This document shows positions 43,062-46,961 of a DNA stretch of 64,000 nucleotides, piece by piece. Origin of the DNA: Diphasiastrum complanatum. Its lineage: Eukaryota > Streptophyta > Lycopodiopsida > Lycopodiales > Lycopodiaceae. The stretch is from contig CM055109.1 in NCBI GenBank assembly GCA_029204225.1, positions 30,392,698-30,456,697 of the forward strand. The letters are read 5' to 3'. Below the pieces are notes generated by a model. That model had not been told where the DNA came from. It did not search any database and was given only the letters and a program-made list of their open reading frames with translations. The position numbers and the translations under genes are program-made. Every line of letters begins with the position of its first letter. Positions within the stretch are counted from its first letter, which is position 1.

Positions 43062-46000
43062 CGGAGTGATGTCTTCCAAGACCTCTAGAAATGTTGTGTA
43101 AATAGCCTCGTATTCTCTACACATATACAATGGCGGTTCATTGCAGCAGCTGCCTTGGGAAAATTGCCAGTACTCGCAAACAGGTCAATGACGACATCCT
43201 CCTGCTCTGTCAGCATCTCTAGCATAAACCTATATGGGCAATATCGATCGCAAAGAAGGTGTCATGATAAAACAAAAAGCACATAAAAAGCTATGTTTGA
43301 TGGAAAAAAGACGATACTAATAAATGCTATTTTCGTAAACAAGACATCTTAAGTCACCTGCAGAATTTAGGAGATCTCTTTGCTGCTCCACGACAATTTC
43401 CGTCTCCCAACTGAGTCCATTCCATCTGGGGCTCAGTTAGCCAATTGCATGATGGACTCGGATGAAGGCTCTAGTATTTCTTTGCTGCAGATAGTCGTTC
43501 CAATGTAGGGATGAGATGGCCCGCACGGTGGTATAGACCCATGAGAAGGATGTCAACCTACATTTTTGACTCCTAGTTAGTATAGCCATACCAAAGCAAT
43601 TGATATTACTACACAAACACATGATGAAGTGACCAATAGAAAATTACAAACCTTTTCTCTTTGCTCTGTCATAATATATCCATTCTCAAGAATGACTGTC
43701 AAACACCTATGTAGACTAAACCCCTCTGCTGAAGCGTGCACGTCAATGGACGGATAACATTTCGGGATGCATGTGACGACATACCATCCCTGGTCAGCAA
43801 CGTACTTGCATGCAATCATCGATGCTGACCTGGCCAAGTCATCACTGAATATATTCCAAGGGGGCACTGAATACTCATCCACTTTGCCATAGACGCAAAG
43901 CGAGGTAGGAAAGTTAGCCCACACCAACCTTCCAACAACGTCGGTGGCCTCTCCATTGATTGTGTAGTCTGACAGACAATGGCTCCTCAAGAAATGGCGG
44001 ATGATCTTGTTTGGTTTTTTTTCTTTCTTGCGATCCTATGCACATCCTCTAAGATTGCACGTACACGACCATGCGCTGTGTCCATAATCACGTATTTAAA
44101 TTAGAGTCTAGGCAAAAAGGACACTTAAGAAAGCCATCAAAAATTGCAACTACACTCAATACATAAATGTGCCAACGTCGAAGTGGTCTTCCTCAGAAGT
44201 ATGCTCGTCAGTGGCTGTCTCATCCTCATCAATATTACTAGGTCCACGTTGCCCCCTTGCACTATGGTCCTCTTCTATACTTGGTTCACTGGCTGTGTAA
44301 TCTAGCCTTAGCTTGGTTCTTGCTTCATGTCTGTCAAGGTTTAGGGTTTTGTGTCTTGCTTTTGATGCTAAAGCTGCAACTCTCTCGGATTGCACACGTT
44401 TTCCTTTTTTCATGGCCTCCCACTCATGAAACATATCGTCTTCACAAGGATGTCTCTCCCCCTTTGGGTAGTCCAACCACCAAGGACACCTCTTTAGCTC
44501 CCATGAACTAATTCCAAAATCTCTCCACTCTTCAGGATAGAGTGAGTAGGCTACCCCAATAAGTATCCAGTCCTCAACTTCTATTGGGAGTTTTGTTATC
44601 ACATTTTCATCGATGAGCCAGACCAACCACCTGGCAGAAGAGTAAACATTGTTAAAACTTCATGCATTGTATATTAACAATAAGCACAAACATCCAATTA
44701 ATAATGCATTTCATTACCTGTACGCTAGTCGTCTAGCTATATAATCGATCTGTGGTTGCTTATTGGGCGTGGCAGAGTTTTTCATATCTTTTTGAATGTC
44801 AATAAAAGCATGGTTGAAGTGCAATTGGCGTTGTCTCCTAAAAAATGAGTCAGCGCTGTCAGGCAAGCAATCTCCTTCGCATGTGGTCAGGCCACTAATT
44901 ATGGAGTTTGCAAGCGATATTGCTTGCCACCAGTATGGTTCCTTGTACATGTATTTGCGAAAATTTTTATTGTTAGAAGGCATTCCCCATGTATCCCTTG
45001 TAGGCTTGTCAGCGAAAAGGATGTGTAGTATCTCTTTCTTCCTACAAATATGACAAAATCAACATGAGAGAACGCAAAAGTGCTTATGCAGGTTACGTAA
45101 TTTAGAGGTTTTGATTTATTGACGAAATTGGAACATTTACAATAGAAGCTTACTTAGCAGGTCCAACACTGGACGTGGCAATTGTTTGCAATTTGTCTTC
45201 AATTACAACCAGGCCTTTTGTGTCCCACACTATATTGTAGAGGATTTGAAAAAACCCTTCTCCATTTTCTGGATTGGCAATTAATGCCAGTCGCTTTCCC
45301 TTGTAGATGAAAGTCGTTTCAACGGCTTGAAAATTTGTAGTTGGGTTAGCTCGAGACATTCTTTTTGTAAGACCTCACCACAATTCAGATAACTTGTATG
45401 TACCTTGAAAGAAGCGTTTTATTGTAAATCGTAATCTTCTGTATCCTTCAGTATCAGGGCTGCCATTGGTAGGCTGTACCATGGCTTGTAGTGTGTCTTT
45501 CTCTCTACACTCAATTCAATCTCAATCCACTTTTTATCTTCCGGCGCTATGCTATCCAAGAGAGTTCCTGTATCTGCCACTCCAAACTTTTGCAACATGA
45601 CTACCTCGTGAGACAACGTCGGCTGCACATGCACTCTGGTCAACCTGCACCGTTGGCATTTTTTTCATGCACTAGGTCCACATTGGTTAAGAACTCTCTC
45701 TCTTACTCAAGTCTTACTCTTGTTCCTAACTCTCTCTCTCTCTCTCTCTCTCTCTCTCTCTCTCTCTCTCTCTCTCTCTCTCTCTCTCTCTCTCTCTCTC
45801 TCTCTCTCTCTCTCTCTCTCTCTCTCAGCTTAAGGCTATGCTTTTTGAATGGAAAAAATTACTGTCTTGTAATTCTGATAGCCAAAATGTACTTGCCGAT
45901 TAATAGCGCTCAAAGCTATAAGAAGTTCCCCTTCCCGAGCTTTTGAAACTTCCAAGAAAGTGCAGTCTACTCGAATGTGCATTTTCGGCACATGAGGGAA

Positions 46001-46961
46001 CTCTGCATAAAATAAATTATTGTATCATCAATTGTTCGAGAAGACAACAAAGTAAAAAATATAAAGCATTTATGTACAAAATTATAATAGCTCTTACCTT
46101 CCTTGATGCGGGCCATCCAAGCCTTGCACCTATGATTGCCATCCCACACTAAAAACTTTTTATTCGAGATATGCAGCTATTCTGGCCGATTCAATAGCTC
46201 CTGTTCAAATTCTTGATTGACCCTGCACCATATGGGACCCCAAGCAGCCTCGTCATAGCATGTAACCTCATAACCAGTTTCCCAGTCTCTAGACATGGAT
46301 ATCATGAACTTTCCTTGCTCAAGGATATATCCCGAGGTGATGAAACTATAACCCATGTCAAAAACATGGTCGGTAACCATACGTATGGCCTCATTTATTA
46401 CTAGTCGACAAAGAGGAATTGATGGCAGTGGCAGCATAGTCTGCACTCTAAAAGATTGGACTGTCTCTTGCAATATGTATGTGTGTATTAGCTTGCCCAA
46501 CAACCAAGGATGGGCCTTTTTTTCTTGAGAAATGTCCAATGATTCCACTTCTGCGACAACTATCGGAGACCTGTGACCACTTTCATTTTCCATAGCAGAC
46601 ATGTGATCATCTAGTTCGTGTATTGTTCCTCCCGTCTCCTCAGGAATTCCACTTGCAACTGGTACCGTTGTGCTATAGACATCCCCATCTCCCACTTGAG
46701 AGGCCGTAGGATCCATCATGGAAATTGGATTGTTGATGGTCTCCTCACTTCCTATGGAGCTTCTACGGATGCCACGGCTGAATGATCTTAGTAGGTACCT
46801 GGCAATTGACATTGTTCCTCCTGTTGCAAGCAATAACATCAAGTTATTTGATATCATAAAGTTGTACACATCCCAAACATATCATAAAGCTTACCTGTGC
46901 AAACTTCGCAGTTCATGCACTTCTCGCCGCTTGCATAGAAAGATAGCTTCTTTAAGCGAAC
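43062..46961 (-). pseudogene. ParB-like / beta-class DNA methyltransferase, decayed multi-exon gene
   Basis: Exons fitted on the minus strand: 46961-46895, 46820-46098, 46002-45897, 45644-45404, about 45373-45154, 45041-44718, 44630 to about 44156, about 43990-43652, 43557-43358, 43229-43062. Exon 1 has CMNCEVC, a CxxCxxC zinc motif. Exon 2 ends with FLVWDGNHRCKAWM, the nucleotide-binding-loop signature of ParB/sulfiredoxin-like domains, and exon 3 continues it (KMHIRVDCTFLEVSKAREGE). Exons 5-7 are unassigned (FIYKGKRLALIANP; Trp-rich; basic/acidic tail). Exon 8 has EYSVPPWNIFSDDL then DQGWYVVTCIP, fitting a DPPW-type motif IV. Exon 10 has EDVVIDLFASTGNFPKAAAA and NRHCICVE, the FxGxG motif I, giving the beta order. 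Lesions: TAG before LHISNKK, TAA after EDYDLQ, frameshifts near 44020 and in exons 9-10. The exon 3 donor would be GC. Substrate unknown. Confidence 0.68.
45731..45826. repeat. (CT)n microsatellite inside a methyltransferase-gene intron
   Basis: About 48 uninterrupted CT units lie between exons 3 and 4 of the minus-strand ParB/methyltransferase pseudogene, with more CTCTCT phrases just upstream (45690-45730). Confidence 0.97.

Follow-up and report, generated by a model that had tools for sequence, protein, structure and literature searches.

A putative two-gene DNA transposon of the lycophyte Diphasiastrum complanatum with a decayed gene for a protein related to DNA amino-methyltransferases

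Results and Discussion

A multi-exon gene on the minus strand

The window analysed here is a stretch of 64,000 nucleotides from contig CM055109.1 of Diphasiastrum complanatum (assembly GCA_029204225.1), and all positions are counted from its first letter. Its minus strand carries a decayed gene with three parts: an N-terminal block with a DGNHR motif (block A), a conserved middle block (block B), and a part related to beta-class DNA methyltransferases (block C). The gene lies inside a repeated element whose ends, second gene and other features are collected in Table 1, and sequence comparison suggests that it is a dead copy of one of the two genes of a multi-copy transposon.

Table 1. Features of the element and of its two genes in the window
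Feature	Position	Strand	Basis or remarks
Left target-site duplication candidate, CTTTCTCTC	39898..39906		8/9 match to 55715-55723 if right end read as CCCC
Left terminal inverted repeat, GGGTGTGATTTTTTGGCGAGC	39907..39927	+	Homology boundaries of other insertions
Methyltransferase part (block C)	42917..44107	-	Exons ~44107-43652, 43557-43358, 43229-43062, 42964-42917; spliced model and Pfam
Block C motifs	NFPTS near 43,910; motif I FASTGNF near 43,170	-	Spliced model
Conserved middle block (block B)	44163..45325	-	Exons ~45325-45154, 45041-44718, 44630-44163
N-terminal block (block A), IPLCRLVIN and DGNHR motifs	45404..46812	-	Exons 46820-46098, 46002-45897, 45644-45404
Upstream exon, probably 5' untranslated	46895..46961	-	Splice sites; start codons of other copies
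Palindromes of ~50 bp (CACAGAGCCGACAAACCAGGTG...CACCTGGTTTGTCGGCTCTGTG)	47825..49061		Three in 272-bp tandem array 47825-48618, one at 49010-49061
Decayed transposase-like gene T	50833..54237	+	SWIM-like finger; genome matches; divergent from methyltransferase gene
Right terminal inverted repeat, GGGGAATGATTTTTGGCGAGC (minus reading)	55694..55714	-	C977 homology boundary at 55715
Right target-site duplication candidate, CCTTCTCTC	55715..55723		Sequence; one base of slack in run of C

A preliminary description of positions 43062-46961 had pointed to several motifs on the minus strand, and all were located where it had put them: FLVWDGNHRCKAWM inside an exon with its 3' boundary at 46098, VPPW at about 43,860, and DLFASTGNF...NRHCICVE in the exon 43229-43062. 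Exon models were built with a spliced protein-to-DNA aligner written for the present analysis. A single model of about eleven exons spans 46961 to 42917, the 3' end reaching about 42917 and so passing the 43062 given before. Most of its introns are GT-AG, with one GC-AG intron that has a GCAAGT donor, and split codons restore the frame in most cases; the junctions between exons 4 and 5 and between exons 7 and 8 are uncertain. The model is partly circular because the query given to the aligner was the window's own translation, and the recurrence of the same exon layout in other copies is independent support for it. The candidate start codon is an ATG at 46812. Two other copies (L020 and L024) have protein starts of the form MSxSRYNL, and from the starts of other copies the first exon (46961-46895) probably precedes the start codon. 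The earlier proposal of a plant gene with many exons was therefore borne out by the spliced model and the shared layout, with about eleven exons, the first probably untranslated, in place of about ten. It had also called the copy decayed, which agrees with two clear in-frame TAG codons (46177-46179 and 43471-43473) and three frameshifts (near 45423, 44015 and 43116); because of these the window copy is considered dead.

The methyltransferase-like domain

The Pfam profile N6_N4_Mtase (PF01555) matched the last window exon alone at E=1e-5, and the joined block C of the window at 26.1 or 28.5 bits against a cut-off of 26.7, the score varying with the limits set for the block and with the treatment of the frameshift. 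This match is limited to profile positions 164-217. In a first alignment of block C the profile was found at E<=0.1 in 10 of 11 rows, the unmatched row probably being that of L011, which is without the last exon. Because some rows of this alignment had been hand-adjusted, nine copy models were rescanned as printed. All nine of these unedited models matched (E 8.6e-11 to 3.6e-4), three of them above the cut-off of 26.7 (L016, 42.6 bits; L021, 30.0; L018, 28.6) and six below it (21.0-26.3). When a profile of the family was compared with the PDB there were eight matches at E<=10, seven of them to beta-class DNA methyltransferase sequences (two at about 6e-5, the best 5.6e-5, and the others at 0.011-0.22). 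The eighth, an Sm protein (E 1.3), was discarded as a chance match. The beta-class N6/N4 methyltransferase domain named in the preliminary description was thus recovered both on the window exon and in all nine of the rescanned models, and block C is predicted to be a domain related to this class, with profile similarity over the half that contains motif I. The other half was recognised by no profile in the Pfam scans.

Motif I (DxFxGxG) is clear near the C-terminus, as DLFAGTGN, DLFASTGN, DAFAGVGT and variants of these, and it is well preserved in most copies whose models reach it. The VPPW block, previously taken for motif IV, did not hold up as such, since other copies read PTW, PIW, PHW, PAW or PFW at this place and L010 reads STW. 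A better candidate for motif IV may be [DNQ][FL]PT[SGT], which occurs in all 10 rows of the block C alignment that cover the stretch; L017 and L022 read DFLTS there. It follows a hydrophobic strand (LVWA) and precedes a WNxF helix, a position that would correspond to the usual layout of beta-class enzymes. As neither VPPW nor [DNQ][FL]PT is the canonical (D/N/S)PP(Y/F/W), catalysis cannot be assumed.

The DGNHR block

Block A had been described as ParB-like on the strength of its DGNHR motif. GxxRR/DGxHR is the phosphate-binding motif of the ParB-CTPase fold, and a motif of the DGxHR type, though short, is present in block A. Every one of the 10 aligned copies of the block retains DG[ND]HR, in most cases after VPLCRLVxN or IPLCRLVxN, and DG and HR are also present in the 10 of 20 unedited models that extend over this stretch. 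Profile comparisons did not bear out the identification. PF02195 had no match at E<=10 when compared with the whole genome exon by exon, while 11 of 14 control genomes did match, and Pfam found no ParB domain in any of the 10 aligned copies or on the window exons. A PDB profile search with block A gave no support for ParB, a profile-profile comparison (hhalign) with four ParB rows was negative with both alignments shallow, a small ParB hidden Markov model with shuffled controls was negative, and tblastn against phages found no ParB or phage similarity. The sole hint from profiles was DndB, at E=0.054 on one window exon. AlphaFold predictions made from single sequences for two window exons were of low quality (mean predicted local distance difference test scores, pLDDT, of 44.7 and 44.1). 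Because the alignments are shallow, with some rows hand-adjusted at junctions, and the domain is split among exons that were searched one by one, block A may still have a remote ParB-like fold, and it is named here only for its motif. Block B had no match in Pfam scans of the window and the copies.

Copies of the gene in the genome

The assembly searched comprises 1.74 Gb in 5176 contigs. Block B had 581 candidates, and the best 150 were scored and all matched, which supports the earlier suggestion of a family elsewhere in the genome. With four rows left out, 146 block B loci remained. Among these matches the methyltransferase part lies within 3 kb downstream on the same strand at 67 of the 146 loci, and within 3 kb in another order at none. 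Twenty loci chosen for open frames were fetched. All 20 contain block B; the methyltransferase follows it on the same strand at 16, and the DGNHR block precedes it, also on that strand, at 14. In L021 the DGNHR block is on the opposite strand. Nine loci were displayed, and in seven of them (L009, L010, L016, L019, L022, L023 and L025) the sequence between blocks B and C allows a short GT-AG intron; the spliced models of copies run through both blocks. By gene model, then, the DGNHR block, block B and the methyltransferase were probably one polypeptide. Of the preliminary claim that ParB and methyltransferase share one protein, the joining is probably correct, and the ParB identity is not supported.

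The element and its second gene

The ends of the element were sought where homology between the window and other insertions stops. On the left, homology ends at 39905 for the insertion seen in C20 and C977, counted as one because the flank is common to both, and at 39907 for the C24 copy (89%); the right-hand boundary with the C20/C977 insertion is at 55715. Homology to the C6 copy begins only at 39959, and towards the right the C6 and C20 stretches stop matching near 51.6-51.9 kb, within the element. A right-hand fragment of C24 was rejected as evidence for the right end, having no homology to the window. The comparisons indicate terminal inverted repeats of about 21 bp. Subterminal GGCGAGC repeats continue from the left one to about 39975, and the 21 bases of the right repeat (GGGGAATGATTTTTGGCGAGC) recur in the diverged copy L013, at its end on the side of the methyltransferase. 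On the two sides of the C977 insertion stand GAAATAGTG and GAAATGGTG, a 9-bp duplication for which an equal match was found in 48 of 200000 random pairs. The corresponding figure for the window flanks, CTTTCTCTC and CCTTCTCTC, was 1698 of 200000, at a pyrimidine-rich site that is weak alone. Both duplications contain a single mismatch, and the reading of each allows about one base of slack where G or C is repeated. Target duplications of 9 bp are regarded as probable, and from the homology boundaries, the terminal repeats and the flanking duplications the element is estimated to be about 15.8 kb long (39,907-55,714).

A further copy, 98-99.6% identical to window positions 40370-57776, lies about 550 kb away on the same contig (C18:29880000-29897500, 17.5 kb fetched). 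Whether it is an assembly duplicate or a segmental duplication of recent date, it was useless for finding the ends.

The second gene of the element, gene T, resembles a transposase. It consists of an N-terminal part, a Cys/His-rich region ending in HEGEHTHEV, a DEAQANWR...FHW region and a C-terminal SWIM-like finger, the SWIM match having E=0.0014 and 18.6 bits against a cut-off of 19.6. In three window pieces and a decayed model of L023, there was no other convincing Pfam match. Gene T had 980 candidates in the genome, of which the best 150 were scored and matched. Among the matches listed it lies within 20 kb of block B at 28 of 146 loci, and at 21 of these 28 it is divergently upstream of block B, where 0.5 such pairs are expected by chance. 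A DNA transposon with such a gene and with defined ends had been missed in the preliminary description, which had looked to fusions of the phage or bacterial kind. The near-perfect palindromes sit between the two divergent genes and are a candidate regulatory or binding site; among the fetched loci they occur only in the 98% duplicate and in the C6 and C20 copies, which are near relatives.

Selective constraint

The ratio of nonsynonymous to synonymous substitutions (dN/dS) was 0.144 in block B and 0.256 in block C for the pair L016-L019, and 0.132 and 0.227 for L016-L014. In block C it was 0.234 between the window and L010 and 0.373 between L010 and L021, and between subfamilies block C values were 0.23-0.37. 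Young pairs had mostly 0.4-1.25, as in dead copies. Lower young-pair values were found in block B of L015-L020 and L015-L022 (0.25 and 0.24) and in block C of the window and C6 (0.226); block C of L015 was misaligned in this comparison. This is consistent with an active lineage under constraint that sheds decaying copies, and the low ratios suggest that the sequence of the accessory protein mattered to the element.

Interpretation

We consider it likely that the window gene is the dead accessory gene of a two-gene plant DNA transposon whose other, divergent gene is the transposase-like gene T. Several observations weigh against this interpretation or against parts of it. Gene T has no match to a Pfam transposase domain, it is near only 28 of the 146 block B matches listed and present in only 3 of the 20 fetched stretches, the layout differs in 7 of the 28 close pairs, and the pairs include duplicates of one insertion; the low counts are partly an effect of the best-150 lists and of the limited extent of the fetched stretches. 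The right end rests on one independent insertion, C977. Stops or frameshifts are found in all 20 models, some perhaps made by the aligner, and no intact copy was found among them. The Pfam matches of block C cover only about its last 50 residues (profile positions ~163-219 of 221), the half with motif I, and block C contains no canonical (D/N/S)PP(Y/F/W), its candidate for motif IV being without the usual proline-aromatic pair. As to constraint, the deep pairs given above have dS values (1.4-2.5) that approach saturation, a level that other deep pairs have reached, and the choice of models by protein similarity tends to favour low dN.

The most likely target of the accessory protein is the DNA of the element itself, and its domain is most simply read as one that methylates adenine N6 or cytosine N4. 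The protein would bind the element's own DNA and methylate adenine N6 or cytosine N4 on it, and the methylation would serve escape from host silencing or help in transposition; we put this forward tentatively, as plausible rather than probable. Given the non-canonical motif IV a non-catalytic DNA-binding role is nearly as likely, and if that motif cannot catalyse, the protein may instead be a DNA-binding anti-silencing factor. VANC is the name of Vandal-encoded proteins in Arabidopsis, and an element-borne factor with a comparable role, its methyltransferase fold no longer catalytic, is a somewhat doubtful explanation of the second gene. It would account for the absence of the proline-aromatic pair from all 10 rows covering the motif IV candidate, and Vandal elements, plant transposons of the Mutator type, code for a protein by which their own silencing is regulated (PMC12730594). 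However, motif I is well kept in most copies reaching it, and block C is constrained between subfamilies, which a mere scaffold would not obviously need. A more far-reaching proposal, that the transposon writes its own N6-methyladenine (6mA) or N4-methylcytosine (4mC) by means of a sequence-reading N-terminal block and an amino-methyltransferase, in a genome where such enzymes number hundreds of domain copies, and that the 6mA or 4mC of the plant would be largely a product of transposons, is also doubtful.

Two other origins of the gene were weighed. Transfer of a ParB-methyltransferase fusion from a phage or bacterium, as proposed in the preliminary description, appears unlikely. Fusions of ParB with N6_N4 methyltransferases are frequent in phages (PMC12704722), and the conserved DG[ND]HR with VPLCRLVxN before it, like the DndB hint, would fit such an origin; yet block A lacked ParB or phage similarity in the profile, PDB, hhalign, hidden Markov model and tblastn tests, and phage matches for the methyltransferase were weak (best E 0.03; against PHROGs only weak methyltransferase matches were found, the best at 0.00048). 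It is far less probable still that a host gene for unusual DNA methylation, like the 4mC enzymes of Marchantia, was captured and spread by transposons in the manner of Pack-type elements. Mutator-like elements do capture genes, and Marchantia sperm has a 4mC system (PMC8566409), but the order and orientation of the blocks are constant among the loci listed, and no intact single-copy host version was noticed among the matches listed, which were not a search for one.

Comparison with known systems

The Mutator-like superfamily is characterised by 9-bp target duplications, a SWIM finger and accessory genes. The present element resembles it, and Vandal in particular, in its probable 9-bp target duplications, its SWIM-like finger, which scored just below the Pfam cut-off, and its accessory gene, but differs in that its terminal repeats are only about 21 bp and its accessory protein is another one. 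Terminal inverted repeats with a duplication of about 9 bp were found at two insertions, whereas Pfam found no Mutator-type transposase domain in the three window pieces and the decayed L023 model. Because this domain was looked for and not found, the element was not classified as Mutator-like.

Transposons with enzymes that modify DNA illustrate how mobile elements may counter silencing by the host, and the cases found in the open literature are fungal elements with TET/JBP and retrotransposons with methyltransferases. KDZ is one fungal transposon group with TET/JBP. Other fungal DNA transposons, among them hAT7 and IS3EU, also carry TET/JBP dioxygenases and thus, like the present element, combine a DNA-modifying enzyme with a transposase (PMC12730594). 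Their enzyme is an oxidase of 5-methylcytosine in fungi, while here an amino-methyltransferase-like domain is found in a plant. Among retrotransposons, a Dnmt is carried by SymbioLINE/DIRS-Dnmt and by KnitGypsy-Dnmt3, whose nonsynonymous-to-synonymous ratio (Ka/Ks) is below 0.2, and Dam-like adenine enzymes by DIRS elements; DNA transposons with DNMT are mentioned for marine viruses (PMC5890265). The retrotransposons share an element-borne DNA methyltransferase with the present case (PMC5890265), but their enzymes are of the C5-cytosine or Dam type, whereas the element described here is a DNA transposon with a PF01555-type domain. Eukaryotic amino-methyltransferases that write 4mC are N4CMT of bdelloids (PMC8885841) and MpDN4MT1 of Marchantia (PMC8566409). 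Both are host genes, N4CMT with SPPY and a chromodomain, in contrast to a transposon gene with a non-canonical motif. The ParB-N6_N4 fusions of phages and prophages likewise join a methyltransferase to a block with a DGxHR-type motif on one protein (PMC12704722), but the present gene has an extra middle block and introns, and ParB profiles do not match it. A plant DNA transposon with such an enzyme was not found in the open literature searched (subscription journals and repeat databases were outside its scope), and among the entries listed for the host species Diphasiastrum nothing fitted.

Amino-methylation is not a standard part of plant biology, and the domain resembles bacterial and phage enzymes. 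Disputed 6mA and 4mC signals in plants could have a direct and testable source in a family of plant DNA transposons that carries an amino-methyltransferase-like gene, and copies of this kind may be entered as host methyltransferases in the gene catalogues of the lineage. PF01555 had 1605 candidates in the genome, and the best 150 scored were all above the Pfam cut-off, at 38.9-60.8 bits; these places include duplicates and several pieces per gene. None of the 150 lies within 2 kb of the 129 places listed for the methyltransferase of the window family. These counts indicate that copies of the amino-methyltransferase domain have multiplied well beyond the present element. One of them, L041:3419-4099 (47.6 bits), belongs to a different methyltransferase family with a canonical FSGSGTT motif; it has neither block A nor block B and was rejected as a member of the window family. 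By eye, it adjoins retrotransposon-like open frames.

Other features of the window

Just outside the transposon lies a Ty1-copia element, identified by eye (56234-62665), with identical 656-bp flanking repeats and an uninterrupted frame of 1322 residues, on account of which its insertion is considered recent. Its 5' repeat is included in the 98% duplicate on the same contig. A reverse-transcriptase frame was found on the minus strand at 18885-20213 (RVT_1, E=1.7e-11), and the open frame at 7590-9026, with a strong match to DUF1635 (E=1.1e-39), is apparently an ordinary host gene.

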